NCBI GenBank assembly: GCA_022801715.1
Contig: JAAWSV010000004.1
Coordinates: 1 to 64,000, forward strand
DNA: 64,000 nucleotides
Source of the DNA: Oscillospiraceae bacterium
GTDB lineage: Bacteria > Bacillota > Clostridia > Oscillospirales > Oscillospiraceae
Direction of reading: 5' to 3'
Part shown: positions 20,066 through 34,658 of the stretch, in pieces
Layout: each line of letters begins with the position of its first letter
Numbering within the stretch: the first letter of the stretch is position 1
Program-made: the position numbers and the translations under genes
The notes under the pieces: generated by a model
Seen by the model: the letters and a program-made list of their open reading frames with translations, nothing else
Database searches by the model: none
What the model was told of the DNA's origin: nothing

Positions 20066-20120
20066 GACTTAGGAGCTAAGAATGGTGGTGCCGCCTACGG
20101 CGACACCACCATTCCTAATC
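20061..20120. repeat. Hairpin element with AATTAGGA/TCCTAAT ends at the recG/DUF2812 junction
   Basis: AATTAGGA (20061-20068) and TCCTAAT (20113-20119) flank a stem made of AATGGTGGTG and CACCACCATT (20081-20113). The element carries the stop codons of both convergent genes. AATTAGGA-type ends recur at 42.1 and 44.8 kb. Confidence 0.6.
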
Positions 20121-21516
20121 TGCTCGCCACCGTCCTCATCTCCCCCTTCGAAACCTCCCAATCAAAGTAGATCTCCACAATCCGCCCCTCATAGCACAGC
20201 AGGTACCGCCCCTGCGGCCCATCGTCCTCCCGCATCAGCCGGTAGGCCTCCTTCGCCTGCCACGGCGCCGGGTCGATGGCCTGATACTGCTCCCGATACC
20301 CCTCCGGGACGCCCACATCGCGGGTGACCTCATCCCGCTCCCGCAGCATGGCATCCCGGCAGAGGTCGTACAGCGCCGGCACCTTCACCGTTGCCACGCT
20401 GTAGCTCAAATAGGGCATCTCCTGGGAATCCGCCGCGTCCAGCCGGGATTTCTGCACCGCCTCCATCCACCCGGCCAGAGGCGACTCCTCCGCCTGCAGC
20501 CGATAGCTGTACCCCTCGTACTCCACCCCCAGCAGCTCCTCCACCGTCAGCGGCAGCTCGTCGTTGTAGGCCGTGAAGGTGAGCCCTTTGTACTCATAGC
20601 TCTCCTCCCGCCCCTCCGACAGCCACCCCTGCTTGGCGGCCCACCGTATACCGGCGGCCTCCCCGCCGATCAGCAGGACGACCAGAAAGAAGGAGAGGAT
20701 CAGTGTAATTCCCAAATTGGCGCCTCTGGACACCTTTCGCCGCTTGAGGGCATTTCGCACCAGATGGACTATGGCCACCACCAAGAAATACCCCAGTATC
20801 ATAATCGCCAGTACTGCCGCCCTCAGCGGCGGCCCGTCTTGAAACAGATCCACCATGTAGAACACCATCGACGCCAGCACCGCCGTCAGCGCCACGCATT
20901 GGAACCAGTGGTTGCTGCGCCGGGTCAAAAATACCCCCTGCTCCGCCGCCTTTACCGCCCGGCGGTGCCACAGATAATACCCGCTTATATCCGCCGTACA
21001 CAGCGCGATGACACACAGCCAGCAAAACCCGCTGAACAGGGTGGTGCTCTTGGCCAGCGTCTCCGCCATGTGGTTCTTCACATCTCCCCAGAGCACTCCC
21101 CCATTGAGCAGTGCCACCGCCAGCAGGGCGATGCTGGAGCGCAGCACATTCCCCCTGGACCGGTGAATGGTGTCCACCATCACCACCGGATCCGTCTCGA
21201 TGGGCACCGGATTCTCCCGCTGGTTGTAAAAAATCTGCATCTGCGCCGACGACGCCGCGATCTCCCACCCGGTGTGCTCACAGAAGTCGTAGAAGGTGCT
21301 CTGTCCCTCGCTGGGCTCCGGATCGAACACCGACGCCCCCGGGTAGTAGGTCACACAGAACGTCAGCTTCTTGGGCTCAATCCGCCGGTAGACCCAGCTC
21401 CAGCTCCCAAACTTCTCCAGCAGCCACCCCCGCTCCGCCATCCGGCTCAGGCGCTTTTCGATCCCCTTCTGGTCAAAAAACGAGTAGAACTCAAACCGCC
21501 GCATTCTCTCCTTCAT
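20095..21516 (-). CDS. DUF2812 domain membrane protein
   Basis: A 473-residue protein. Residues 1-110 match the DUF2812 start (FYSFFDQKGIEKRLSRMAERGWLLEKFG) that is typical of proteins encoded with PadR regulators in Firmicutes. About six hydrophobic helices follow, then a soluble C-terminal domain from about 300. The ATG at 21516 overlaps the padR stop codon. The function is unknown; PadR pairs of this type often respond to membrane-active compounds (inference). The last codons and stop lie inside the AATTAGGA-ended hairpin element. Confidence 0.85.
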   Translation of the reverse strand: MKERMRRFEFYSFFDQKGIEKRLSRMAERGWLLEKFGSWSWVYRRIEPKKLTFCVTYYPGASVFDPEPSEGQSTFYDFCEHTGWEIAASSAQMQIFYNQRENPVPIETDPVVMVDTIHRSRGNVLRSSIALLAVALLNGGVLWGDVKNHMAETLAKSTTLFSGFCWLCVIALCTADISGYYLWHRRAVKAAEQGVFLTRRSNHWFQCVALTAVLASMVFYMVDLFQDGPPLRAAVLAIMILGYFLVVAIVHLVRNALKRRKVSRGANLGITLILSFFLVVLLIGGEAAGIRWAAKQGWLSEGREESYEYKGLTFTAYNDELPLTVEELLGVEYEGYSYRLQAEESPLAGWMEAVQKSRLDAADSQEMPYLSYSVATVKVPALYDLCRDAMLRERDEVTRDVGVPEGYREQYQAIDPAPWQAKEAYRLMREDDGPQGRYLLCYEGRIVEIYFDWEVSKGEMRTVASRLGMVVSP

Positions 21517-21836
21517 CTCTGCTCCTCCTCCCCCATCATCCGCCGATAGTCCTCCGCCTGGGCACAGATCCGCCGGTACTCCTTCTCCAGCGTCTCCTCC
21601 CCGCTCTTGGTCAGGATATAGCTGCGCCGCCGCCCCTCCACCTTGGTCTCCCGGATCATCCCCGCCTGACGGAACTCCTCCAGCAGATTGTAAAGGGTCC
21701 CCGACCCCACCGTCACCCGCCCCTCTGTCATCGCGGGCACCCGATCCAAAATATCCATCCCATAGCACTCCTCTCTGAGACAGAGCAAAATATAAAACAT
21801 CTGCTCCGTCAGCGTCCGAAACTTCAGCCTCGGCAT
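21513..21836 (-). CDS. PadR family transcriptional regulator
   Basis: A 107-residue winged-helix regulator: LTEQMFYILLCLREECYGMDILDRV and the PadR signature VGSGTLYNLLEEFRQAGMI, followed by a basic wing (EGRRRSYILT) and a dimerisation helix. It is coupled to the DUF2812 gene by an ATGA overlap. Two identical palindromes, one exactly in the promoter spacer, point to autorepression. Confidence 0.93.
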   Translation of the reverse strand: MPRLKFRTLTEQMFYILLCLREECYGMDILDRVPAMTEGRVTVGSGTLYNLLEEFRQAGMIRETKVEGRRRSYILTKSGEETLEKEYRRICAQAEDYRRMMGEEEQR

Positions 21837-22245: not shown

Positions 22246-22276
22246 CAGTCTGAAAAGGCCCCGCCTTTTCAGACTG
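22246..22276 (-). terminator. Hairpin overlapping the last stop codon of the phage-like operon
   Basis: CAGTCTGAAAAGGC and GCCTTTTCAGACTG form a 14-bp perfect stem with a CCC loop. The stop codon of the 22269 gene is within its first arm. No T run follows, so it may stabilise the mRNA end. Confidence 0.5.
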
Positions 22277-22835
22277 ATAGCTCAAAACTATACCAGGTAT
22301 GCTCCGCCCGCTCCACCATCTCCCAGGTAAACCCCTGCGCCTCACACTCCGCCCAGGTAATATACCGGAAATAGAACTCCGTCTCCAGATGACAGGGGAT
22401 CAGATCCAGGATCACGTCCCGAATCTGCTCAAACCCCTCGGGAATCCCGGACACATCGGGGAAAATCACCCGGATATGCCCATACTCCCCCGTCTCCTGC
22501 GCCAGCGCCCAGATGCCGCAGCCCCGGATTGCCCGGTTGATCCCCGCCAGCGTGAAGCTGTCCCCGCTGACCTGGAGCAGCGCGGCGATGGCCTCCCGAC
22601 GCCGCTTCACCCCGTAGTCCGCCGGCCGGTGGGCGAAGAGGTCCTCCCGCAGCCTTAGCCCCTCTGCCTCCGCCGTGGACAGGATCACCTCCCGCTCCGC
22701 CCGCTCCACCGCGGCGCCGCAGCCGTCCAGGGCCGCCCCCGCCGCCGACAGCTCGCCGCCGCTGAGGGATCCCTCCGACAGGTCATAGACCCCCAGGGGC
22801 TCCAGCAGCTCCTTCAGATACCCGCCGTACCCCAT
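22269..22835 (-). CDS. DUF2313 / XkdU-like phage tail protein
   Basis: A 188-residue protein of the YmfQ/XkdU family, which sits next to baseplate protein J in contractile phages. The start GYGGYLKELLEPLGVYDL and the central RREAIAALLQVSGDSFTLAGINRAI are typical. It is the last gene of the block: no tail fibre, holin or lysin follows, only hairpins. It starts four bases after the J gene ends. Confidence 0.85.
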   Translation of the reverse strand: MGYGGYLKELLEPLGVYDLSEGSLSGGELSAAGAALDGCGAAVERAEREVILSTAEAEGLRLREDLFAHRPADYGVKRRREAIAALLQVSGDSFTLAGINRAIRGCGIWALAQETGEYGHIRVIFPDVSGIPEGFEQIRDVILDLIPCHLETEFYFRYITWAECEAQGFTWEMVERAEHTWYSFELSV

Positions 22836-22838
22836 ACG

Positions 22839-23891
22839 CTAAACCTCCCCGATGGTCAGCGACTGGAGGGTGGGCAGCTCCCCCACCGCCGCCGGCACGT
22901 CCGCCGCCGGTGTGATGATCTGATAGTTGGCCACGCTGGGCAGCTGATAGAGCAGGTTCCCCAGCTCCGCCCGCAGGACGCCCTGTCCCAGCAGCCGGCC
23001 GGTGAAGTATCCCCGCAGCGCCGTGTCCGCCGCCGCCGCGGCCTCCTCATGGGTGTAGCCCTTGGCCGGCTTCAGCGCCACTTGGAGGGCCACCGGACGC
23101 AGCTTGGGGGCCTTTACCTGCAAGTCCACCGCGATCTCCCGCTTCTCCTGCAAGTAGGCCTGGATCTCCGCCAGCAGCGGTGCCTCCGGGGCGCCGGCCA
23201 CGGTGGCCACATACACATCCACCGTCCCGATCCCCCTGGCCCGGCCCACCGCCGTGGCCGCCGCCACCGCCGGGAACCCCATGGCCTCCTGCTCATAGAA
23301 GGCGGCGTTGGCCCCGTTGGGGAGCCGGCGGTAGCTGTTCAGGATTCTCTCCCGCAGCGACGCGTCGCCCTCCTCCTCCGCCCCGCCGGCGAAGGGCTCC
23401 GGGTTTCCGCACCGGGTGATCCCCGCCGGGGGCACCGCCATCACCGTGATCACCCCCGGGCCGATATTCCCCGCCGACCCCGTCTCCATGGCCTGCGCGG
23501 ACACGTCCACGTGGCTTTTCCCCGCCGGCAGTACCGCCGCCTCCTGCGTGGCAAAGCGGAGGCCCCCCGCCGTCATACACACCGTTCCCGCCGGGATGGC
23601 CAAATCCTGTCCCACCGGGGCGGAGACAAAGAAGCGCACCGCCCCCTTGGCCGCCGTGGCGGCGCTGCGGACGATTCCCCGCACCTCCCCGTGGTAGTCC
23701 AAATACACCCCCGACGCCGTCTGGGGGAAGCTCTGCGCCATCACCCAGTCCGCCTGCGCGTAGAGCGCCTGCACCTGCGCGGCCATGGCGTACAGCCGCA
23801 CCGGCAGGTCGCAGGCGTCGGCGGGGAGATAGCCGGCGCGCTGGGAAAACACCTGCATCATCTCCTGATAAATTGCCTCAATATCCCGCAT
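22839..23891 (-). CDS. Baseplate J family protein (XkdT-like)
   Basis: A 350-residue wedge protein of the contractile-tail baseplate (P2 gpJ/XkdT family). The family signatures QSFPQTASGVYLDYHGEVRGIVR near residue 50 and GTVDVYVATVAGAPEAPLLAEIQAYLQEKREI near 220 are present. GAGGAGG precedes the ATG at 23891. Confidence 0.92.
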   Translation of the reverse strand: MRDIEAIYQEMMQVFSQRAGYLPADACDLPVRLYAMAAQVQALYAQADWVMAQSFPQTASGVYLDYHGEVRGIVRSAATAAKGAVRFFVSAPVGQDLAIPAGTVCMTAGGLRFATQEAAVLPAGKSHVDVSAQAMETGSAGNIGPGVITVMAVPPAGITRCGNPEPFAGGAEEEGDASLRERILNSYRRLPNGANAAFYEQEAMGFPAVAAATAVGRARGIGTVDVYVATVAGAPEAPLLAEIQAYLQEKREIAVDLQVKAPKLRPVALQVALKPAKGYTHEEAAAAADTALRGYFTGRLLGQGVLRAELGNLLYQLPSVANYQIITPAADVPAAVGELPTLQSLTIGEV

Positions 23892-23900
23892 GGTACCTCC

Positions 23901-24245
23901 TCACACCGTCAAGCGCAGGGACAGCCGCTCCCCCTCGCCGCTCAGCTGTACCTCCACCGCCACCCGGCCGCCGCCGGCGTCGGAGAGGGTCACGTCCTCC
24001 ACGCTGACCGCCTCCCCCCGCAGGGCCTCGGCCACGTACTGCCGGGCCGCCGACAGCCGACTGCACCGGGGCTCACTGCCCAACCGGTAGAGCTCGCTAC
24101 CTATCTCCGGCAGCATCGGGAAGCTCCCCCGCCGGGCACACAGGCGGAAGAGTACCCGCTGCAAAAGCGCCTCCGCCCCCTCCGAGCGCACCAGACCTCC
24201 TCTGCCGTCGGGCACATAGTCCCCATCTCGAAGCCAAAGCTCCAT
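23901..24245 (-). CDS. Baseplate gp25/gpW-like protein (XkdS/DUF2634)
   Basis: A 114-residue protein. MELWLRDGDYVPDGRGGLVRSEGAEALLQRVLFRLCARRGSFPMLPEIG follows the gp25-like pattern for the sheath-nucleating baseplate subunit. The ATG at 24245 has GAGGAG seven bases upstream; longer starts are not supported. Confidence 0.82.
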   Translation of the reverse strand: MELWLRDGDYVPDGRGGLVRSEGAEALLQRVLFRLCARRGSFPMLPEIGSELYRLGSEPRCSRLSAARQYVAEALRGEAVSVEDVTLSDAGGGRVAVEVQLSGEGERLSLRLTV

Positions 24246-24259
24246 CGCGCATCTCCTCC

Positions 24260-24655
24260 TCATCCCATTCCGCACAGGCAGGGCACATAGAGACTGCCGT
24301 TGACCATCAGCCGCCCATAGATCTCCACCGTCCCGTCGTTGCGCAGCGTAAGGGAGGCCCCGCCGCTGTAGAGGCGCAGCTCCCCCGGCTCCAGCTCATC
24401 TGTCTCCCGGCGGGCCAGAGCGCCGGCGATGCACTGCTCCTCCCGGCCGCTGCCGCCCTTGATCACCAGCACCGTGTCCCCGGCCTTGGGCGTCCAGACC
24501 AGTCCCCCCGGCCCGTATACCGGCAGGGAGCGGTCCTCCCCACGGGTCAGCACTGCCGCCTCGCCGCCGCCGATGGTGGTCACGCCCACCTCCGCCTCGG
24601 CGCTCTCCTCCCGGGCCAGCTGCGCCGCCCCGGCCATTCGCTCTCCCATCCACAT
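24260..24655 (-). CDS. Phage spike/baseplate V-like protein (XkdR/DUF2577 position)
   Basis: A 131-residue protein with an OB-like middle (YGPGGLVWTPKAGDTVLVIKGG) and a beta-rich end (LYSGGASLTLRNDGTVEIYGRLMVNGSLYVP) that fits a short trimeric spike. The N-terminal 25 residues are helical. Three in-frame ATGs lie within 20 codons, so the start (24655) is uncertain. Position and fold pattern support the call. Confidence 0.7.
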   Translation of the reverse strand: MWMGERMAGAAQLAREESAEAEVGVTTIGGGEAAVLTRGEDRSLPVYGPGGLVWTPKAGDTVLVIKGGSGREEQCIAGALARRETDELEPGELRLYSGGASLTLRNDGTVEIYGRLMVNGSLYVPCLCGMG

Positions 24656-24656
24656 C

Positions 24657-25595
24657 TCAGTCTATAGCCTCCATCACCACGGTGGTCAGCGTCCCCGCCG
24701 GGCCGCCCCGGCTCTCCGCCTCCACCACGTCATACGCTCCCATAAGCCCCAGCGGCGGGTAGCGCAGGTCCGCTATGTCCCCCGGCTGGGCCTGGAAGGC
24801 CCCCGGCAGGGTGAGCTCCACCTGCCGCGCCAGCGCACGGGACTTCTGAATCTGGTACGCGCCGGTGTAGCGCATGGCCTCCCCGGAGCTCCTGCGGGGC
24901 ATGTACAGCACCTGCCGCCGGCAGCCGCCCCGGCGGAGGAAGTCCTCGTGGCGCACCGTCTCCGTCCGCCCCCCGCTCTTGTCCTTCACCAGCACCTCCG
25001 ACAGTACGCCATACCGCCGCTCCCGCACCGTACAGCCCGCCACCGAGGCCGCCTCCACCGACAGACGCCGCCCGCTCCCCTTCAGGGGGGAGGCCCGCAG
25101 GACCCCCAGGGCCGTCATGTGGGGCGTAAAGCCCCCCGCCAGCTCCGTAAAGCCGCTGACGGCCCGCCACTGGCTGCTGCCGCTGTTCACCCGATAGACC
25201 CCGCTCCCCGTCAGCTCCCGCCTCTTCTCATAGGGGACATAGGGTCCCGCGTGCCGCCGCAGGATCTCCGACAGCGTGGCCTGCTGATAGCTCTCCGCCT
25301 CCGCCTCGTTGTCTATGAGCAGCGCCGCCATCCCCCGCCCGCTGAGGCGGAGCAGCACCCCCTCCTTTGTGACCTCCGCGGCGTACTCGTCCACCACCCC
25401 CCGAAGCACCGCCTCTGTCCCCTCATAGGCGGCGAACCGGTGGCACAGGGGCAGGATTGCCCCCAGCTTCCCATCGTAGAGGCACACCGCCTCCATCTCG
25501 TCGCAGGGCACGCCGCCGGTACGCAGGATACGCCACCGGAGGGTCACCGGCAGCTCAAACTGCCGACCGTCCACCGTCAAGAGCCGCACTGTCAT
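24657..25595 (-). CDS. XkdQ-like tail hub protein
   Basis: A 312-residue protein in the place of XkdQ/gpD, the central hub that joins tube to spike. The pattern LTVDGRQFELPVTLRWRILRTGGVPCDEMEAVCLYDG, the YQQATLSEILRRHAGPY segment and the VELTLPGAFQAQPGDIADLR end are family-like. The ATG overlaps the stop of the LysM gene (ATGA). Confidence 0.82.
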   Translation of the reverse strand: MTVRLLTVDGRQFELPVTLRWRILRTGGVPCDEMEAVCLYDGKLGAILPLCHRFAAYEGTEAVLRGVVDEYAAEVTKEGVLLRLSGRGMAALLIDNEAEAESYQQATLSEILRRHAGPYVPYEKRRELTGSGVYRVNSGSSQWRAVSGFTELAGGFTPHMTALGVLRASPLKGSGRRLSVEAASVAGCTVRERRYGVLSEVLVKDKSGGRTETVRHEDFLRRGGCRRQVLYMPRRSSGEAMRYTGAYQIQKSRALARQVELTLPGAFQAQPGDIADLRYPPLGLMGAYDVVEAESRGGPAGTLTTVVMEAID

Positions 25596-26149
25596 ACCGG
25601 CACCACCACCTGCTGTCCCACCCGGATCAGGTTGGGGTTCTTGATGGCCGGATTGGCCCGCAGCAGCGCCTCTATGGTCACACCGTACCGCCCGGCCACC
25701 CCCCACAGGGTGTCCCCCTGGGCCACGGTGTACACCGTCCGCCGCTGCTCCGCCGCGGCGATCCCCTGGGCCACCTCCTTCAGCCCCTCCCGGATACCGG
25801 GAAAGTCCTCCACAAAGGCAAAGCGGTAGCGCACATAGTCCGGCAGCGGCTCCTCCGCCAGCGACAGCTCCGTGAAGTAGGCGCTGGCCGTCTGCCACAC
25901 CGGATGGACCAGAATCCCCGGCCCGTCCTGATAGAACAGGGAGGCCAGCCGCTTGAACTCGTCGTAGGCCCCCTCCCCGGCGAACTCCCCCTCCCCACGG
26001 AGCACCCGGCGCCCCAGCCCTAAATCCTGCACGCAGTAGCGCCCAAAGGGGATCTTGTGCACCACCACCTGCCGCTCAAAGGCGATGGTATAGGTCCTCG
26101 GATTGTGGGGAAAGGTATAGCTCTTATACCGCATCGGCTCCAAACGCAT
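25592..26149 (-). CDS. LysM-containing tail protein (XkdP-like)
   Basis: A 185-residue protein. The first 135 residues are a tail-associated domain; the C-terminal 48 residues form a LysM repeat (YTVAQGDTLWGVAGRYGVTIEALLRANPAIKNPNLIRVGQQVVVP) that binds peptidoglycan or helps baseplate assembly. AGGAGGGGG precedes the ATG at 26149. In PBSX this gene follows the tape measure; here it follows a 216-residue low-complexity protein. Confidence 0.85.
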   Translation of the reverse strand: MRLEPMRYKSYTFPHNPRTYTIAFERQVVVHKIPFGRYCVQDLGLGRRVLRGEGEFAGEGAYDEFKRLASLFYQDGPGILVHPVWQTASAYFTELSLAEEPLPDYVRYRFAFVEDFPGIREGLKEVAQGIAAAEQRRTVYTVAQGDTLWGVAGRYGVTIEALLRANPAIKNPNLIRVGQQVVVPV

Positions 26150-26163
26150 GGAACCCCCTCCTC

Positions 26164-26814
26164 TCAATACAGCGTAAACCCGCCGTCATACCGCCGGCTG
26201 TCCCGCTCCCAGCGATCCGACAGCGCCTTGGGCGACAGACCTGCCCCCCGCTCCGCCGACTCCTTCTCCGGCCCCGCCGGCCGCTCCACCGGCCCCGCCG
26301 CCGACCCGCTCTCCCACTCCGCCGGCCCCTTCTCCGCCGGCAAAGTCCGCTCCGCCGCCGGCAGGGTCCGCTCCACCGCGTAGGAGGCCGGCTCCGGAGC
26401 CGACAGACGCCGCCCCGCCATCCCGCTCCCCCGACGCACCGGCGCCTCCTCCGCCCCCCGGAGCCCCCGCTCCGGCGAAACGCCCCCCTGCGCCGAAAAC
26501 CCGGGCTCCACCGGGGAGGGGCCCTCCGCCCCCTCCCCCGACTGCCTCCCTGCCCGGCGGGAATACGGTCCCCGAGGCCCCGACGCCGTACCATCCTCCG
26601 GCTCATCCTCCGCCCGGGACAGAGGCTCCCGCGCCCCCGTCTCCTCCGCCCGGGACAGCCGACGGAACGCCGCCTCCTGAAACCCCCCATTTTCCGCCGC
26701 GACGGGCGCCCGGCCCTCCGCCCCCGTCAGGGCCTCCGCCGCCGCCGACAGCAGCGTGCGCACGGTCTCCTGGGGTACGCGCAGGGCAATCTCGATCATC
26801 TCCCGCTCTCTCAT
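26164..26814 (-). CDS. Low-complexity 216-aa protein in the tape-measure position
   Basis: The N-terminal 55 residues form a probable helix pair (IEIALRVPQETVRTLLSAAAEAL and FQEAAFRRLSRAEE). About 130 residues rich in Pro, Glu, Arg, Ala, Gly and Ser follow, with tandem VERTLPAAERTLPAEKGPAE repeats, and then a conserved-looking end SPKALSDRWERDSRRYDGGF. The start overlaps the tube stop codon (ATGA). In PBSX-type clusters this slot holds a tail chaperone and a tape measure of many hundreds of residues. No transmembrane helix and no peptidase motif are visible. It could be a very short tape measure, a chaperone or something new. Confidence 0.65.
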   Translation of the reverse strand: MREREMIEIALRVPQETVRTLLSAAAEALTGAEGRAPVAAENGGFQEAAFRRLSRAEETGAREPLSRAEDEPEDGTASGPRGPYSRRAGRQSGEGAEGPSPVEPGFSAQGGVSPERGLRGAEEAPVRRGSGMAGRRLSAPEPASYAVERTLPAAERTLPAEKGPAEWESGSAAGPVERPAGPEKESAERGAGLSPKALSDRWERDSRRYDGGFTLY

Positions 26815-27203
26815 GCGCGCACTTCCATCCGCTTTCTGGCCAGCACGGACACCTTCTCCGCCACCATAGCCCCCAGCTTCCCCTCCTCGGCGATGGCGCT
26901 CCAGTTGCACCCGCTGTAGATCACCCGCCGGTCCGGCTTACAGATCACCAGCGAGAAGTCCCTCATCCCATAGAAGTCGATCCCGTCGCTGATGGCGTCA
27001 TCGGTGGCATAGAGCCGCGTCAGCTCCAGCACATACTGGCACTGCCCGCCGATGGTGGCCACCGGCTCCTCCTCCCCGAAGGCCTCGATCACCTGACTGG
27101 TCTTGGTGGTTTTGACGCTGTAGCTCTGCACCACCGCCACCTTTTTCCCCTCCAGCTCCAAATAGATGTCGCTGCTGGTGGGAAATCCCGTCACCTTTGC
27201 CAT
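26811..27203 (-). CDS. Phage tail tube protein (XkdM-like)
   Basis: A 130-residue protein with MAKVTGFPTSSDIYLELEGKKVAVVQSYSVKTTK, the normal start of clostridial tail-tube subunits, and a beta-rich body. It lies directly after the sheath gene as in PBSX. AGGAGGGCAGGT precedes the ATG. Confidence 0.87.
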   Translation of the reverse strand: MAKVTGFPTSSDIYLELEGKKVAVVQSYSVKTTKTSQVIEAFGEEEPVATIGGQCQYVLELTRLYATDDAISDGIDFYGMRDFSLVICKPDRRVIYSGCNWSAIAEEGKLGAMVAEKVSVLARKRMEVRA

Positions 27204-27243: not shown

Positions 27244-28302
27244 TCACACTGTGATGTGGGCCGTCAGATAGATCTGATTCAGCCCGTGGGCCACGGCGAA
27301 GCTGAACTCCACCACGCACACCGAGGGGTCCGCCGCGTCCACTGACACCGACACGTCGCCGTAGCCGTCGATGATCTCCGCCACCAGCTTGCTCTCCAGC
27401 TCCACAATCACCTGCGAGCGGATGGCCCCTCTGGTCTGGGCGGTGTTCTTCTTCCGGGCGAAGCGGCTGCGCAGGGCGGCGCGCACCGTGGGGATCACGT
27501 CATCCACAATCAAGATCGTGCTCAGCTCCCGCCAGGTGCTGTCCGCTGTCCCCCCGGTCTTGGTTCTGGTGGTGATCCCCCGCACTGCCGACACCGCGCC
27601 GCCCACGCCCTCTATGGGCGTCACGCCGCCCCGGACCAGCAGGTCGATGTCGCTGTCGCCGTAGCGCTCCGCCGTGCCGCCCAGACCCCGGAGCACCGCC
27701 CCGTTGATGGGCGCCGCCGGGTCGCCGCTGGCGGCGATGACCCCGGCAAGGGCCGCCGCGGCCAGCATCCCCGGCAGGCGGCTGCCGTCCTCCGAGAGCA
27801 CGTCGCCTCCCACCAGCACCATGCGCTCGCTGTTCAGCGCCCCGGCCCGCTGGATGAGCTGGGCCGCCGTCTCGGCGGCGCTGCCCACCACGCCGATGCG
27901 CTCCCGGCGGGCGGCGCTGGCCTCCTCTAAACTGACCCGCAGCAGCTGCTGGACCGGCAGCTCGCCGCTGTCGCAGGTGACCACCTGCACGTCCTCCTCC
28001 AGGCTCAGCGCGTCGAAGGCATCGCCGTAGTGGTCGGCGTCGGCGGCGCGCACCGCCTTCACCACGCCGGCCCCGTTGGCGAAGAGGAGGCGGAGCATGG
28101 CCTCCATCCCCTTGGTCTCCCCGTCGCTGCCGAAGGCGGTCAGCCCCGCCTCCAGGCTGGTGATGGTCACCACCTGTCCGCTCTCCCCCTTGCCGGACAG
28201 GGCCGCCAGCCCCACCACCTTGCCCCCGCCGAACCTCTGCACCACCGAGGAGGCGTCATAGGAGGAATAGACCCCCGGCCGCTCATGTACTATTGCGCTC
28301 AA
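27244..28302 (-). CDS. Contractile tail sheath protein (XkdK-like)
   Basis: A 352-residue sheath subunit. The N-terminal HERPGVYSSYDASSVV is the sheath signature. The C-terminal third (TWRELSTILIVDDVIPTVRAALRSRFARKKNT, then a SVSVDAADPSVCVVEFSFAVAHGLNQIYLTAHITV end) matches the conserved sheath core. It is shorter than most phage sheaths (about 350 instead of 430-480), like compact XkdK forms. It overlaps the previous gene by 20 bases. Confidence 0.92.
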   Translation of the reverse strand: MSAIVHERPGVYSSYDASSVVQRFGGGKVVGLAALSGKGESGQVVTITSLEAGLTAFGSDGETKGMEAMLRLLFANGAGVVKAVRAADADHYGDAFDALSLEEDVQVVTCDSGELPVQQLLRVSLEEASAARRERIGVVGSAAETAAQLIQRAGALNSERMVLVGGDVLSEDGSRLPGMLAAAALAGVIAASGDPAAPINGAVLRGLGGTAERYGDSDIDLLVRGGVTPIEGVGGAVSAVRGITTRTKTGGTADSTWRELSTILIVDDVIPTVRAALRSRFARKKNTAQTRGAIRSQVIVELESKLVAEIIDGYGDVSVSVDAADPSVCVVEFSFAVAHGLNQIYLTAHITV

Positions 28303-28804
28303 TCCAAGGCACTCCTTTCAATCTGAAATCCAGCAGCAGTCCCGTCTCCGCCTCCACCGACGCCACAAAGAACGCGCCGCACTGGAGGGAGCCCCGCTGC
28401 AAAAACATTCCGCTGTCTATGTCGAAGCGGGCCTCGCCCCAGTCCATCCGCCCCGGCCGCAGTCCCGCCGCGGGGGAGGCGGTCAGGGCGTCGTGGGCCG
28501 CCTCCAGGGCCGCGAGGCACCCGGCGGCGCCGGCCTCCCGGGGGGCGTAGGCGTCCAGCGCCAGCGTGAGCTCCGCCTGCCGCCCATAGATCTCCCGATC
28601 CGTCCCGGCCTCCTGATCCCACGCCGCGCCCAAATAGCTGCCCAGCCCCGCCGAGGTGCTGGCAAAGCCCCGCACCCCCACGGCCACCACCGCCCCCTGA
28701 TACCGTCCGGCCCACTCCCGGCTGTAGGCGGCCTCCGCCTGCACCCCTTGGGCGCGCAGGCGATTTAGCACCGCCTGACGCACCAGCTCCACACCGCTTG
28801 TCAT
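28283..28804 (-). CDS. Phage neck/tail terminator-like protein
   Basis: A 173-residue protein located directly before the sheath, where PBSX has XkdJ-like and tail-terminator genes. LVRQAVLNRLRAQGVQAEAAYSREWAGRYQGAVVAVGVRG is followed by a beta-rich body. The call rests on position and general fold; a specific family was not recognised. Start and stop overlap both neighbours. Confidence 0.6.
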   Translation of the reverse strand: MTSGVELVRQAVLNRLRAQGVQAEAAYSREWAGRYQGAVVAVGVRGFASTSAGLGSYLGAAWDQEAGTDREIYGRQAELTLALDAYAPREAGAAGCLAALEAAHDALTASPAAGLRPGRMDWGEARFDIDSGMFLQRGSLQCGAFFVASVEAETGLLLDFRLKGVPWIERNST

Positions 28805-29121
28805 ACCACCGTCTCCCTCTCCCGTACCAGCACCGCCCGGCAGTAGAGGGGCGCGTCCCCGAAGGGCACCAGCACGCTCTCCCGCACCCGATAGGCCTGT
28901 CCCTCCCAGAGGAGCCGATCCTCCCGGTCCACCTCCCGGTCCGCCGGTCCGATATAGAGCCACCGCCGCTGGTCCACGTCCCCCAGCGCCGTGCTCCTCC
29001 GCTCCTCCTGCGAGGCCTGGCCCCTCACCGGCTGCACAAAGGCCCGCCAGCTCTTCCCGCTCTCCGGGCAGCTCACCCGCTGCCCATAGGTGCCGAGAAT
29101 CCCGGCAAACAGCTCTCTCAT
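28801..29121 (-). CDS. Phage head-tail joining protein
   Basis: A 106-residue protein (RELFAGILGTYGQRV ... RRWLYIGPADREVDREDRLLWEGQAYRVRESVLVPFGD) in the position of head-closure proteins. The central WLYIGP..., WEGQAYRV motif is common in such connectors. Coupled by ATGA overlaps on both sides. Confidence 0.65.
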   Translation of the reverse strand: MRELFAGILGTYGQRVSCPESGKSWRAFVQPVRGQASQEERRSTALGDVDQRRWLYIGPADREVDREDRLLWEGQAYRVRESVLVPFGDAPLYCRAVLVRERETVV

Positions 29122-29504
29122 CCCCGCACCCCCAGAAAGGCGAAGCCCTCGCCATCGCTGCGGTAAGGGGCCATCATCCGCTCCGCTTGGCGCCGCAGAC
29201 GCTCCCCGGCGCTGTCGCTCCCGCCGCCGCCGGTGCCGCCGCTGCCGGTGGTCACGGAGACCTCCCCCACGCTGAATTTCTCCACACTCCCGCCGGCACT
29301 CTGACCGCAGCGGCTGTCTATCAGCCCCGCCGCCCCGAGGAAGGCGGCGGCGCAGAGGAGGGCCTCCCGGCACTCCTCCCGCCCCTCCCCCGCCTGCCGC
29401 GTGAGCCGGCGCTCCGCCTCCCGGCACAGCAGGCGCAGCAGCGCCTCCTCCTTTTCCTCCGGCCTGACCAGCCCCGCCGCCAGCCGATAGATCTCCTCCG
29501 TCAT
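29118..29504 (-). CDS. Phage head-tail connector-like protein (gp6 type)
   Basis: A 128-residue helical protein (EEIYRLAAGLVRPEEKEEALLRLLCREAERRLTR), placed immediately after the capsid gene as gp6/XkdH-type connectors are. A glycine-serine linker near residue 85 precedes a short helical end. The exact family is inferred from order. Confidence 0.65.
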   Translation of the reverse strand: MTEEIYRLAAGLVRPEEKEEALLRLLCREAERRLTRQAGEGREECREALLCAAAFLGAAGLIDSRCGQSAGGSVEKFSVGEVSVTTGSGGTGGGGSDSAGERLRRQAERMMAPYRSDGEGFAFLGVRG

Positions 29505-29526: not shown

Positions 29527-30558
29527 TTACACCTTCAGTACCTTGGACGCCCCCTGGTAGAGCTTGGCGAACCCGGAGATACTGGTGATGGACGCCCGCT
29601 CCAGCTGGCGGTCGATGAGCCTGTCCGCCTCCACCATCACCTGTCCCCCGGTGACCATCTCCAGGGCATACCGTCTGTCCAAGCCCACCAGCGTTCCCGC
29701 CGGCATGGCGGCGGTGCGCAGGAGCTTGGCCCCCAGGGGCGTGGTCAGCGTGCCGGTGCCCTGAAAGTTCAGCCCCGTCAGGGGGTTTTGCAGCTCCGGC
29801 AGCTTCAGAAGCTGGAGCATCACATCCCCCGGCACCAGCATGGTGTTCATGCAGTAGGGGTCAAACTGGGCCCAGAACTCCAGCAGGGCCCCATAGCTCA
29901 GCTCCCCCGCCTGCCCGGAGATGGGGTCGCTTCCCACCTGAAAGCTGTCGGCGGCGTTGCTGTTGCCGTCCCCCTTGAGCACCACCTCGATGGCGTCCTC
30001 CATGTGCATCCGGGCGATGTGCCCGCCAATCTGGCGCAATGTCACCGCGAACAGGTCCAGCCGCTGGAAGCGCACCGCCTCATAGGAGGCCACCAGCATC
30101 CGCCCCCGCTTGTGGAGGCGCACCAGATTCTTCTGGGTCTTGATGGCGGTCTGGGGCAGCTGCGCCCCCTCCTCCACCCGGCAGAGGCTCTTGTCGTCCT
30201 CTGAGGGCACAGAGGTGATGGTGCGGTAGTCCATCCCCTCAAACACCGTCTCCGTGGCGGTGATGTCCTTCAGGATGCTGTTCTCCTCCATCCCCTGCCG
30301 GACCACCCGGGACACGAACTCGGGGAAGAGCACCGCCGCTTGGGCGCAGTGGAAGAACTTCTCCACCCTGTCGCTTTTCGGCCCCTTCACGTGGATATCG
30401 AAGCGCTTCAGCTGGCGCTGGAAGGCGTCCAGCCCCTCCATCGCGGTGCCCCGATACCCCTCGCTGGGGTCCAGGCTCTCCAGCACCTCGGTAAAGCTCC
30501 GCCCGCTCTCCTGGTGCATCCCCTTCTCCAGCCTCACCTTGTTGAATCTGTAGTCCAT
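29527..30558 (-). CDS. Phage major capsid protein (HK97-like)
   Basis: A 343-residue capsid subunit. An N-terminal arm of about 70 residues precedes the HK97-type core: FPEFVSRVVRQGMEENSILKDITATETVFEGMDYRTI, and near the end LVGLDRRYALEMVTGGQVMVEADRLIDRQLERASITSISGFAKLY. The ATG at 30558 is better spaced from GGGGAGG than the ATG six bases earlier. Confidence 0.85.
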   Translation of the reverse strand: MDYRFNKVRLEKGMHQESGRSFTEVLESLDPSEGYRGTAMEGLDAFQRQLKRFDIHVKGPKSDRVEKFFHCAQAAVLFPEFVSRVVRQGMEENSILKDITATETVFEGMDYRTITSVPSEDDKSLCRVEEGAQLPQTAIKTQKNLVRLHKRGRMLVASYEAVRFQRLDLFAVTLRQIGGHIARMHMEDAIEVVLKGDGNSNAADSFQVGSDPISGQAGELSYGALLEFWAQFDPYCMNTMLVPGDVMLQLLKLPELQNPLTGLNFQGTGTLTTPLGAKLLRTAAMPAGTLVGLDRRYALEMVTGGQVMVEADRLIDRQLERASITSISGFAKLYQGASKVLKV

Positions 30559-30577
30559 CCTCATACCTCCCCTTTCC

Positions 30578-30922
30578 TCAAAGCAGAATGGTCACCGTTT
30601 GACGGCCCTCATCCCGGTCCACCACCCAGCGGCTCACGCCGCCCGCCGTCTCACCGGCGCTCTGTACGCCGCCCAGCCCATCGGCGGCGAGGGCGGTGTA
30701 CCCCAGCGCCGGCGCCGCGCCGCTGTAGCCCACGGTGACAAAGCCGCCCATCTGCACCGTACAGGCGTCCCCCCCGGCATACACCGCCGCCCCGCAGAAG
30801 GGCTCACCGGCGGCGCACTCCGCCACACAGCCGCCGCCGTCCACCTTCACCACATGTCCCTCGGTGACGCCCCCGAAAAACGTAGCGCACCACTGCCCGA
30901 TCCCCTCAAAAGAAACCTTCAT
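30578..30922 (-). CDS. Capsid decoration-like protein
   Basis: A 114-residue glycine and alanine-rich beta protein (GHVVKVDGGGCVAECAAGEPFCGAAVYAGGDACTVQMGGFVTVGY) resembling DUF2190/decoration proteins found between protease and capsid genes. Five cysteines are notable. The ATG at 30922 follows GGGAGG; the longer frame is not supported. Confidence 0.65.
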   Translation of the reverse strand: MKVSFEGIGQWCATFFGGVTEGHVVKVDGGGCVAECAAGEPFCGAAVYAGGDACTVQMGGFVTVGYSGAAPALGYTALAADGLGGVQSAGETAGGVSRWVVDRDEGRQTVTILL

Positions 30923-30978
30923 AAGAAACCTCCCATCCAAATCTATCACCGCCCCGCCGGCCCCCGGCGGGAAACAGC

Positions 30979-31896
30979 CTACACCATAAACGCGCTGCCG
31001 CTCTCCTCCTGGGACCGCCCCCGCAGCTGCGCGCCCACCGGTCCCTCCGTCCGCCTGCGATAGACCCTGCGCAGCTCCAGCAGCTCCGCCTCCTCCAGAC
31101 GCTCCGCGATGGCGGCAAAGATTTTGCCGTCCAAATCCTCATCCGCCAGCGCCGCCAGACGCGTCACCTCCTGCCGGAGTCCCTGGAGATAGCCCCGCCC
31201 CAGCGCCGCCTCCTGTTCCAGCTGCCGCAGCTCCTCCCGGAGGCTCTCCTCCCCGGATCGCTCCACCAGCGCCTTCAGCGTGGCGCCCTTCTGCATACTC
31301 TTGCGCACCACCCCCGCCGACCGCTGGGCGGGCACCGCCACAAAGGACCACTCATAGGCGTCCCGGGCCTCCCGGAGCGTCAGGAAGCACAGCCGGCTGC
31401 CGTACATATGCCCGGGCACGTGGGCGCACTGCTCCTTCCCGCAGACGGAGCAGACCCGCTTTCCCACGCTGCACCCCACGCTGACCTCCTTCTTGATGCC
31501 CCCCTCGATCTCCCGGATCAGCTCCGCATTGCCCTCGGTGCGGAGCATGTAGGCGTAGGCCTTCAGCCAGCAGTAGGTGTCCCCCGCGGCGGTGAGGCGC
31601 CCCTCCTCCCGGATCACCTCCGTGCGGTAGACCCGGGCGCTCTGCCCCTTGGTGGACCACTGGTGGTCAAAGATGCCGCTGCGGCCCACAAACAGGGGCC
31701 CCAGCTCCCTCAGACACCCCTCATCAAAGCGCTCAAAGTCCCGGTCCACCTCGTTGTCGCACAGGCGCAGGGCAAAGGTGTAGACCTCCCCCGCCCTCAG
31801 GGGCTTCTGGGACAGGCGGTTGATCTCCGCCAGTTCCCCCTCGCTGACCACCGACGCCGCGCCGCTGGCCAAATTCTTTCTGATCTCCATGGTCAT
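30979..31896 (-). CDS. Prohead protease/scaffold-like protein (XkdF-like)
   Basis: A 305-residue protein coupled to the portal gene (ATGA). Residues 1-200 resemble prohead proteases: FVGRSGIFDHQWSTKGQSARVYRTEV gives the candidate catalytic histidine, and EIEGGIKKEVSVGCSVGK the candidate serine. A CSVC...CAH cluster near 160 may bind zinc. The last 100 residues form a charged coiled coil that could act as a scaffold. Family order supports this; catalysis is inferred. Confidence 0.72.
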   Translation of the reverse strand: MTMEIRKNLASGAASVVSEGELAEINRLSQKPLRAGEVYTFALRLCDNEVDRDFERFDEGCLRELGPLFVGRSGIFDHQWSTKGQSARVYRTEVIREEGRLTAAGDTYCWLKAYAYMLRTEGNAELIREIEGGIKKEVSVGCSVGKRVCSVCGKEQCAHVPGHMYGSRLCFLTLREARDAYEWSFVAVPAQRSAGVVRKSMQKGATLKALVERSGEESLREELRQLEQEAALGRGYLQGLRQEVTRLAALADEDLDGKIFAAIAERLEEAELLELRRVYRRRTEGPVGAQLRGRSQEESGSAFMV

Positions 31897-33053
31897 TCCT
31901 CTCCTCTCTCCGCTCTTTCGCAGCTCTGGGCGATCTGTCTGGCCTGCTGGCGGTACCAGGCCGCCTTGGCCTCCTCCACCTGATCCTGCAAATTGATGTC
32001 GTCCCAGACCACCGTAAAGCCGCCGTACCACCCGTGGAGCCGGAGCCACAGCCGGCAGATCCGCTCCACCACCGGCGTCAGCCCCCGCCGGATGGCCGTC
32101 AGCTCCGAGGTCAGGATGTCCGCCTGCTGGGCGCTCATCCGCTCGGTGGAGGACCAGCTGAGGCCCAGCATAAAGGGCGGGATGCCCGTCTTGGCCACCA
32201 GCTGCTCTAAGATCTGGCGCACTGGCACCTCGCTGTCTAAAATCTGGTTGTCCGCCCCGATGACCTTGATCTCCACGTCCCCGATGGCCACAAAGTCCCG
32301 GACGCTGCCGTCCCGGCCGCTCTCCATGGCCCGGCTCCACTCCTCGGCGATCTGCCGGCTGCGCTGGGCGCAGACCGCCGGCTCCAGCTCCCCATTCTGG
32401 GGCTTGTAGACCACCGCGAAGCGCACATTCCCCATCCGCTCCCAGTTCTCCCCCATGGCGGTGTAGATTTTCCCCAGCAGCTCCGCCAAAAAGGGCATTC
32501 CCCGCAGCATGGACACCCCATAGGGCTGGTCCGCCTCGGGATTGTAGGGGGTGAACAGCAGCAGCTCCTGCCGGGGCAGAGGTTCCATTTTCCCGTCCTT
32601 CCCCGGCCCGCAGATCGTGAACGCCAGCGCCGAGGCCCCCTGCTGTATCTCGATGTCCTCCACCCTGCCGCAGAGCAGCGCGGCGATGTCCTGACGCTCC
32701 CCATCCAGCACCATCTCCCCCACCGCCTGCCCGAAGGTCAGCATGGAGTCGAGGTACATGTCCAAAAAGGCGTTGAGGCCCACCTGTCCATGGCCCACTG
32801 GCACCTCTCTGAGGAAGCGCCCCAGCGCCGCCTCTGCCTCCGGCTCCTCACAGACCACCCTCACCCCGCCGGCCAGCCTGATGATCTTGCCCACCGCGGC
32901 ATCCACCGCCGGCACGGCGGCCCGCACCGCCCGATACAGCGGCCCCTGCGCCCCCAAGCGCACCGCCGAGAGCATTCCCCACTCCGCCCCCGGCCGCCGG
33001 AGCTGGGAGCAGGCCGCCCCCGCCGCCGGCTCTTTCTTCCGCCAAATCCTCAT
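31893..33053 (-). CDS. Phage portal protein
   Basis: A 386-residue portal subunit (XkdE/HK97-like). The recognisable core is FLDMYLDSMLTFGQAVGEMVLDG, the AFTPYNPEADQPYGVSMLRGMPFLAELLGKIY wing, the AKTGIPPFMLGLSWSSTERMSAQQADILTSELTAIRRGLTPVVERI helix, and a final basic helix. It lies 58 bp after the terminase. Confidence 0.9.
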   Translation of the reverse strand: MRIWRKKEPAAGAACSQLRRPGAEWGMLSAVRLGAQGPLYRAVRAAVPAVDAAVGKIIRLAGGVRVVCEEPEAEAALGRFLREVPVGHGQVGLNAFLDMYLDSMLTFGQAVGEMVLDGERQDIAALLCGRVEDIEIQQGASALAFTICGPGKDGKMEPLPRQELLLFTPYNPEADQPYGVSMLRGMPFLAELLGKIYTAMGENWERMGNVRFAVVYKPQNGELEPAVCAQRSRQIAEEWSRAMESGRDGSVRDFVAIGDVEIKVIGADNQILDSEVPVRQILEQLVAKTGIPPFMLGLSWSSTERMSAQQADILTSELTAIRRGLTPVVERICRLWLRLHGWYGGFTVVWDDINLQDQVEEAKAAWYRQQARQIAQSCERAERGEE

Positions 33054-33111: not shown

Positions 33112-34359
33112 CTAACACCTGCCTCTTGCCACCGCCACGGCGCCCACGCCCGAGGCGCCCTCCTCCCGCCCCGCTATGGTGGCGGCGAAGTAGCGCATGT
33201 CGTCCATGGCGTGGTCGTTCTCCTTCCGGGGGGCCTCCCGGCCCCCCTCAGGGCTCTCCCAGCAGTAGCCCTCCAGCTCCCGGAGGCAGTCCTCGCAGCT
33301 CTCGCAGATCACCAGCCGCCCGCTCTTGAGGAGCCCCGCCGTCACTCGGATGCCCGAGAGGACGTCGTTTACCGCCCCCACCACGTGGAACCCCTCCCGC
33401 CGGAGGGCGGTGATGAAGCTGACGGCGGAGGGGTCCGCCACCACCTGCTCGATCCGCCGCCCGCCGGTTAGGTTTTTCAGCATCTCCACATACTCCTGAT
33501 CCGTCCGCTGCACCCCGGTCTCCCGGGAGGCGTAGTACACCTCCTCCACCCGGTACCAGGCGGTGCCGTACTTCCCCCAGAGCCCCATGGAACAGGGGTT
33601 GGCGGTGCCGTAGTCCACGCTGACGCACCACCGCTCCGCCGCCCCCTGTGGCTTGGGCCTGGCGTGGTCCTCCCGCCGGTAGAAGTCGTAGATCCGCCCC
33701 GCCGGCGCGGTCCACTCCCCCAGCACGAACCGCCGGTAGAAGGCCCCGGTGTAGCGCCGCTGGTACTGTTCCCGCGTGGCCGGGGACAGTACCGGATTGT
33801 CCTCCATGGTGAAGTGGAGGTAGAGCATCCGCCGCTCCGCGGCCTTCAGGATCCACTCCCGGTAGAACCAGTGCCCCGGCCCCTCCGGGTTGCAGCTGAA
33901 CCACAGCTTGGCCCCCTCCACGCTGCACCGGGCCAGCGTCTGCTCCACGAAGCTCCGGGGCATCAGCGCCGCCTCGTCCAGCAGCGCCCCGGCGAAGGTG
34001 GCCCCCTGGATCAGCGCCGCGCTGCCCTCGTCCTTGCCCCCCGCCAGACAGAACCGGTTCTCCCGCCCGCCGCTCCGGAGGACCAGCAGATTCTCCCCCC
34101 GCCGCTCCAAGACACCCATTCCCATCTGCCGCAGTACCGGCAGCACCTCCCAGAGCACATTCCGCCGGAGGGCCCCAATGGTCTTGCCGCACAGGACGAA
34201 GCACTGCCCGTCAAAGCTCCCCATGGCCCAGCAGAAGAAGCCGATGCCCATGCAGAGGGTCTTGCCGCTGCGCACCGCCCCGTCGCAGATGATTCCCTCA
34301 AGCTCCGGCCTCTCCCGCCACCAGAGCAGGGCCTGCCGCTGCTTGGGCGAGAACCTCAC
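33112..34359 (-). CDS. Terminase large subunit (PBSX family)
   Basis: A 415-residue DNA-packaging motor. Walker A GAVRSGKT near residue 28, Walker B GALLDEAALM near 125 with the catalytic acid, and the RNase H-like nuclease acids in SVDYGTANP, VVADPSAVSF and a terminal DDMRYF are all present, so both ATPase and nuclease look intact. Its presence implies DNA packaging, not just a tailocin. It overlaps the upstream gene by four bases. Confidence 0.92.
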   Translation of the reverse strand: MRFSPKQRQALLWWRERPELEGIICDGAVRSGKTLCMGIGFFCWAMGSFDGQCFVLCGKTIGALRRNVLWEVLPVLRQMGMGVLERRGENLLVLRSGGRENRFCLAGGKDEGSAALIQGATFAGALLDEAALMPRSFVEQTLARCSVEGAKLWFSCNPEGPGHWFYREWILKAAERRMLYLHFTMEDNPVLSPATREQYQRRYTGAFYRRFVLGEWTAPAGRIYDFYRREDHARPKPQGAAERWCVSVDYGTANPCSMGLWGKYGTAWYRVEEVYYASRETGVQRTDQEYVEMLKNLTGGRRIEQVVADPSAVSFITALRREGFHVVGAVNDVLSGIRVTAGLLKSGRLVICESCEDCLRELEGYCWESPEGGREAPRKENDHAMDDMRYFAATIAGREEGASGVGAVAVARGRC

Positions 34360-34658
34360 GCCTCCTCACCTCCGCTCACCGCGCTCAGGAAGGCCTCCAG
34401 CCCCCCGCCCTCCGCCTCCGGCTCCCCCTGGAGCCGGACCAGCAGCTCCAGCGCCTTCAGCCGGTCCAAAAACTTCATCTCCACCGTCCCGTTGGCGTAC
34501 CGCTTGAACTCCGAGATCCCCTCCAGGTGGCAGTTCTTCAAATCCGACGGCTCATCGGTAAAGGCGATCCGAATCCCATCGTTGGGCCGATAGAAGACCA
34601 GCTTCTCGAGGTACTGGATGATCTCCTCCCGGCTCTTGCATCGTCTCACTTGTCTCAT
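34356..34658 (-). CDS. Terminase small subunit-like protein
   Basis: A 100-residue protein starting MRQVRRCKSREEIIQYLEKLVFYRPNDGIRIAFTDEP, directly before the large terminase. The motif 'YLE.L.F.RPNDAIRLAF' recurs in clostridial phage-like clusters at this place. The GGAGGGG is only two bases from the ATG, so a TTG or GTG start 40-50 bases upstream is possible. Confidence 0.6.
   Translation of the reverse strand: MRQVRRCKSREEIIQYLEKLVFYRPNDGIRIAFTDEPSDLKNCHLEGISEFKRYANGTVEMKFLDRLKALELLVRLQGEPEAEGGGLEAFLSAVSGGEEA

Follow-up and report, generated by a model that had tools for sequence, protein, structure and literature searches.

The minimal requirements of a tape measure, and the measurement of tail length in general, have usually been studied by trimming long rulers. 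Canonical tape measures are largely helical, and in PBSX of Bacillus subtilis the chaperone and the tape measure are encoded by the pair XkdN-XkdO. The division of labor has been described in more distant systems: in phage λ, the tape measure is the partner of the chaperone's G part and the tube subunit that of its T part (PMC5009743), while the initiator complex of TP901-1 requires the C terminus of the tape measure (PMC5099701). In the gene transfer agent RcGTA, the tape measure g11 (Rcc01694) has about 216 residues, composed of a 113-residue helix and stretches of 83 and 20 residues, and the tail contains five tube discs and measures 49 nm (PMC7296036). FpGTA of Faecalibacterium (Ruminococcaceae) shows GTA-like packaging with no visible tails, and GTA-like packaging has also been reported in Oscillospiraceae (Onthomonas), where no operon was identified (PMC12946183). 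A partial literature search found no paper linking GTAs with Flavonifractor.

Here, we describe a contractile, PBSX-like cluster from an Oscillospiraceae bacterium, in which one short protein occupies the place of both chaperone and tape measure. The window analyzed comprises 64,000 nt (positions 1 to 64,000 of contig JAAWSV010000004.1, assembly GCA_022801715.1); all coordinates refer to it unless a relative is named, and all cluster genes are on the minus strand.

The cluster and its slot gene

The cluster spans about 12.6 kb, and its largest protein has no more than 415 aa. It opens with a small-terminase-like protein (34356..34655), which matches only the C-terminal half of the PF03592 model (positions 60-127 of 141; E 0.003, under the curated cut-off), followed by a large terminase of the PBSX family (33112..34359; TIGR01547, 157 bits at a cut-off of 105) and a portal (31893..33053; PF04860, E 2e-5, under the curated cut-off). 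The protein in the protease position (30979..31890) has no Pfam match and was assigned by position and conservation only; a small head-region protein (30578..30949) is likewise conserved in position, and the major capsid protein (29527..30564) matches PF25209 (E 5e-14). The head-tail connector region (28283..29504) is made up of genes at 29118-29504 and 28286-28798 and a small ORF between them, with approximate boundaries, no Pfam match, and an order conserved in relatives. The contractile sheath (27244..28302) is recognized by PF17482, PF04984, and phrog_279. The tail tube protein (26811..27203) matches phrog_27038 at E 1e-58; this family carries no function, and the tube was assigned by position.

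On the far side of the slot gene, which adjoins the tube, lie the distal tail genes: an XkdP-like protein with DNA_circ_N and LysM domains (25592..26149), the baseplate hub (24657..25601; phrog_177, E 5e-23), a small protein in the baseplate/spike position (24260..24655; phrog_25991 and position), a gp25/sheath-initiator-like baseplate protein (23901..24275; PF10934, E 0.004, and phrog_43/975), the baseplate J wedge protein (22839..23891; PF04865, E 2e-52), and, as the last gene of the cluster, a Mu gp48-like tail protein (22269..22835; PF10076, E 2e-4, and phrog_521). Beyond the gp48 end are recG and a gene for a DUF2812 protein (18017-21768), and recG is also found near the cluster in ten relatives that have a single slot gene. 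In one relative (L127:5315-6496), small proteins after gp48 resemble a lysis module by eye (XhlA-like, holin-like, and endolysin-like); none was seen at the corresponding place in the window.

The slot gene itself (26164..26814) is the only gene between the tube and the LysM/hub genes, which is where a tape-measure gene is found, between chaperone/tube and distal tail genes. It consists of 216 codons and a stop, and its ATG at 26814 overlaps the stop of the tube gene by 4 nt. A first-pass annotation of this DNA had called a 216-residue protein at these coordinates; both the coordinates and the gene proved sound, with the minus strand as the coding one. ORF length by itself is weak proof of coding in GC-rich DNA. 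We consider the ORF to be coding because it has in-frame homologues in every assessable relative, an invariant C-terminal RR(Y/F), and an omega of 0.14 over the last 26 codons. The protein is rich in A (15.7%), E (14.4%), R (13.0%), G (13.0%), and P (9.3%). The tandem repeats that the same annotation had mentioned are present as two 21-nt units, a lineage-specific one in 2.2 copies (26334..26379, encoding ERTLPAA-ERTLPAE) and another in 2.3 copies (26253-26300), but they are modest and not conserved in the homologues. Searches of Pfam, PHROG, NCBIfam, and PDB with the protein or its alignment returned no match, and no tape measure or solved structure in these collections resembled it in sequence or fold.

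Conserved ends and a free middle

Slot homologues were found in all 79 assessable GTDB loci out of 80 (78 by one script, and the remaining locus, L125, by direct reading), and every one carries the C-terminal motif. This motif has an invariant RR(Y/F) core, with D as the next residue in 77 of 78 proteins. In the window, the motif occupies residues 197-216 (26167..26226), ends in ALSDRWERDSRRYDGGFTLY, and is a proposed docking peptide for the neighboring hub/LysM proteins. In an alignment of 23 proteins, conservation is confined to three blocks: the N-terminal start, the surroundings of F45 and F50, and the C terminus. The central block corresponds to a peptide that we call motif 1 (residues 42-53, NGGFQEAAFRRL; 26656..26691), in which F45 is invariant and F50 nearly so. 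Between motif 1 and the C-terminal motif extends a variable A/E/G/R/P linker (residues 61-194; 26233..26634), predicted to be disordered, with pLDDT mostly near 50 and a charge-hydropathy score on the disordered side.

AlphaFold predicts helices only at residues 15-31 (26722..26772; pLDDT about 90), 47-60, and 195-205, so that 42 of 216 residues are helical and no helix exceeds 17 residues, in a model whose mean pLDDT is 59 and whose confidence is low elsewhere. The slot protein is thus not predicted to be largely helical or rod forming, as canonical tape measures are; since confidence is low beyond the three helices, a fold induced by a partner is possible. Compared with the nearest species, omega rises from 0.35 in residues 1-60 to 0.88 in residues 61-190 and falls to 0.14 in residues 191-216. 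The linker is close to neutral in this single nearest-neighbor comparison; the high divergence of more distant pairs makes them less clear. Length is equally free. It lies anywhere between 156 and 294 aa in the single-gene clade and differs by 41 aa between the window and the nearest species, whose tubes are 98% identical. In the most similar pairs, the proteins differ by 0, 1, 2, 3, 4, 5, 11-16, 21, 41, and 61 aa, with no obvious length unit on inspection.

We think it probable, with some reserve, that the slot protein is a degenerate, disordered protein in the tape-measure position of a domesticated GTA-like element, acting as a two-ended tether and not as a rigid ruler. An ordinary but very short tape measure, extending or folding into a rod in the tube and setting tail length at about 20-35 nm in the manner of RcGTA g11, finds support in the slot, the conserved C terminus, and the size, all of which agree with g11. 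It would also fit two family members (L049 and L048) whose slot proteins shrink to 51 and 56 aa where the sheath, too, is undetected. The absence of any long helix from the AlphaFold model, the nearly neutral linker, and the length changes described above nevertheless make this explanation unlikely. The same observations, together with the disorder of residues 61-194, lend no support to a helical ruler at 0.15 nm per residue. A protein this short and floppy, conserved at its two ends only, suggests that the tail is very short or that its length is not set by a rigid ruler.

Ancestry of the slot and stepwise loss of the chaperone

In relatives such as Flavonifractor, the slot holds two genes. 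Gene 1 is split by a shift from the 0 to the -1 frame at CTAAAAAAAG (L131:10725-10740), a site that is invariant in 14 loci (the equivalents being in L102, L104, L108-L111, L115, L116, L128, L134-L136, and L138). In these 14 loci, the T extension has 97-98 aa and the C-terminal end NxxFDxxRFxxL. The two parts of gene 1 are fused in frame in L140 and L059. For the G domain, predicted at a pLDDT of 88.5, the top structural match is the HK97 tail assembly chaperone (2ob9; Z 8.2 over 91 residues), followed by YqbN (3klu; Z 5.3); we regard the match as moderate because the Foldseek E value is only 0.09. With gene 1, Pfam and PHROG yielded only weak zinc-ribbon matches and a chaperone match at E 0.31. 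It is the combination of frameshift site, slot, and fold that identifies gene 1 as a G/GT chaperone, with a chaperone fold and a predicted programmed -1 frameshift. Gene 2 encodes a protein of 134-289 aa in the full-chaperone group. This ancestral short protein ends in LSRxFQRDARRYDGGFxLY, the same C-terminal motif as that of the window's slot protein.

The chaperone is reduced in other genera. In Oscillibacter and Dysosmobacter, gene 1 is down to about 100 aa and its C-terminal peptide is kept; in the window's clade, gene 1 is missing and the peptide lies within the slot protein, as motif 1. Motif 1 aligns with the chaperone tail at an hhalign probability of 94.5% (E 7e-8) and is present in 57 of 62 chaperone tails and 21 of 22 single-gene proteins, while its F-x4-F/Y pattern had no match in 2116 linker residues. 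We also considered residues 1-40 as a truncated chaperone domain, a candidate that found no support: the residues before motif 1 align with the G domain at an hhalign probability of 0.2%, and the N-terminal helix (residues 15-31) has no detectable kinship with it. What the window's own gene shares with the chaperone is therefore the C-terminal peptide only and not the domain. Homologues in a known chaperone family, which the first-pass annotation had named as evidence against its reading, thus exist for a peptide of about 12 aa and not for a domain. Two relatives illustrate other arrangements: the slot protein of L070 begins almost directly with the motif 1 peptide, and in L055 a single gene of 185 aa combines the C-terminal motif with a chaperone-like domain.

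A tree built from the sheath, the tube, and the LysM protein has the full chaperone as the basal, paraphyletic state. The clade without a chaperone (25 loci) and the clade with a short chaperone (38 loci) are sisters with a support of 0.999, and additional independent reductions occur elsewhere. As read from these sequences, the two-gene slot is ancestral, the T part was lost in one clade, and the rest was lost in its sister, the window's clade, where the peptide was kept inside the slot protein. That one short, low-complexity protein fills the place of chaperone plus tape measure, as first proposed from the window by itself, is borne out by the two genes of the relatives, their stepwise loss, and the retained peptide.

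These data also bear on the idea that the slot protein is a remnant of the chaperone, acting in assembly only and absent from the particle, which would have no tape measure and a length set otherwise, as in type VI secretion. The chaperone's peptide inside the slot protein and the fusion in L055 speak for such a remnant. The better-conserved end, however, is not derived from the chaperone and belongs in two-gene relatives to the second gene, the one in the tape-measure position, and we judge the explanation decidedly improbable.

Domestication, sheathless relatives, and the search for another tape measure

Ten of 11 congeneric genomes contain the tube gene (80-98% identity), each in a single copy, except that one of them has it divided between two contigs. 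Across the family, it was found in 101 of 300 sampled genomes and 48 of 106 genera, with one match each; the genomes compared are largely metagenome-assembled. The GTDB loci belong to Flavonifractor, Oscillibacter, Dysosmobacter, Pseudoflavonifractor, Intestinimonas, and unnamed Oscillospiraceae; cultured carriers of the element include Oscillibacter valericigenes Sjm18-20 (L098) and Flavonifractor sp. An92 (L140). At the level of the order, the capsid gene is single copy in 43 of 295 sampled genomes from six families. Omega for the structural genes is 0.06-0.39 against the nearest species. The genes neighboring the cluster, examined for replication and integration genes of its own, include those for DUF2812 and RecG. 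Vertical inheritance, single copy, a fixed locus, and purifying selection, as expected of a GTA or domesticated viriform, were found.

Among 50,697 phage records, the tube matched two, both faecal contigs; the C-terminal motif, searched in known phages, likewise gave only two faecal contigs below E 1, and they resemble the same element. The IMG/VR matches that we examined are mostly short contigs, many of about 13 kb, with the same slot gene. Entries filed as phage or viral (MT837832.1, MT835769.1, and the IMG/VR loci L142-L221) appear to be pieces of the host element, and the tube of L142 is identical to that of the window. As read from its genes, the element is host domesticated, vertically inherited, contractile, PBSX-like, and GTA-like.

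Reduction has gone further in some loci. In f23, another family of the order, loci L252-L257, L267, L269, and L271 have the same head genes and a baseplate and no detected sheath. Several f23 loci encode mini-proteins of about 40-50 aa with an LSxxxxRDxRRY-like motif, directly before the gene for the LysM protein; in others, such as L252, no such motif was recognizable. Three loci (L046, L047, and L270) have lost baseplate genes and show no slot protein (in L270, a motif-bearing ORF was all that was looked for), and the LysM-protein homologue is shortened in L046 and L047. Because the mini-versions of 40-56 aa keep the motif and the loci with lost baseplate genes show no slot protein, the C-terminal peptide tracks the LysM/baseplate part and not tail length. 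That the slot protein is a functionless, decaying leftover of a defective prophage, as its high omega over most of its length and the joint loss of slot and baseplate genes in those three loci might indicate, is highly improbable given the omega of its C terminus and of the structural genes, the conserved gene order and neighborhood, and its occurrence in all assessable GTDB loci.

We also asked whether a tape measure could be supplied from elsewhere in the genome, which the first-pass annotation had said would refute it. TIGR01760 detected one canonical tape measure, of 1318 aa, on contig C45. To the letter, then, a separate tape measure exists; in substance, it belongs to a siphophage prophage unrelated to the element, and TIGR01760 matched nothing in 9 of 11 congeneric genomes, ten of which have the element's tube. 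The single-contig genome G088, which carries the element, also gave no TIGR01760 match. The C45 prophage (L273, C45:9000-28900), of the siphophage type, is separate from the element and encodes a terminase, a portal, a major tail protein, and a Dit of its own. Two other models, PF10145 and PF20155, detected no tape measure in the genome, a negative that means little since TIGR01760 found one. Profile models miss some tape measures, and the case against supply from elsewhere is thus strong, not complete.

A tethering model and comparison with known systems

Our preferred reading, a two-ended tether, can be put in terms of the partners suggested by the neighboring genes. By analogy with the C termini of tape measures, and from gene order, the C-terminal peptide would dock in the initiator complex formed by the adjacently encoded LysM and hub proteins. 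The T domain of λ binds the tube; motif 1, derived from the T part, therefore probably recruits the tube protein directly, and the chaperone could in this way have become dispensable. The floppy linker would join the tube-recruiting and hub-docking ends. We infer that the slot protein is part of the particle and that the tail is very short, with only a few tube rings. A bolder version is conceivable, though we lean against it: a functional contractile tail without any tape measure, in which a disordered two-hook protein has replaced chaperone and ruler and length follows from minimal assembly. The Oscillospirales would then preserve the successive steps by which a G/GT-assisted contractile tail gave way to near-tailless particles.

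The particle predicted for these gut Oscillospiraceae is phage derived, contractile, and long inherited. The report of packaging in this family had named no operon, and the well-defined cluster in the window is a candidate operon for the host-DNA packaging described there. For the study of tail length, its relatives across one bacterial order form a natural series: the slot protein stays short, the frameshifted chaperone is lost stepwise, and two short peptides are kept.

Each of the described systems shares some of these features. The cluster resembles FpGTA, as published, in a small terminase without an obvious DNA-binding domain and in its reduced tail; FpGTA particles have no visible tail, whereas the window's cluster has sheath, tube, and baseplate genes. 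RcGTA g11 is similar to the slot protein in its short length of about 216 residues and in serving a short-tailed particle of domesticated phage origin, but it is a trimeric rod in a noncontractile tail, while the slot protein is predicted to be disordered and lies in a contractile tail cluster; no sequence similarity was detected between the slot protein and solved structures. The large terminase is of the PBSX family, the gene order and the LysM, hub, and baseplate J genes are of the PBSX type, and gene 1 of the relatives structurally resembles YqbN; unlike PBSX, the window's cluster has neither a long tape measure nor a chaperone gene. Encoded between the tube and slot genes, the G/GT pair of the relatives, with its predicted -1 shift at an A7 slip site, recalls gpG/gpGT of λ, and the window's clade departs from λ in keeping the C-terminal peptide of the chaperone alone, within the slot protein.
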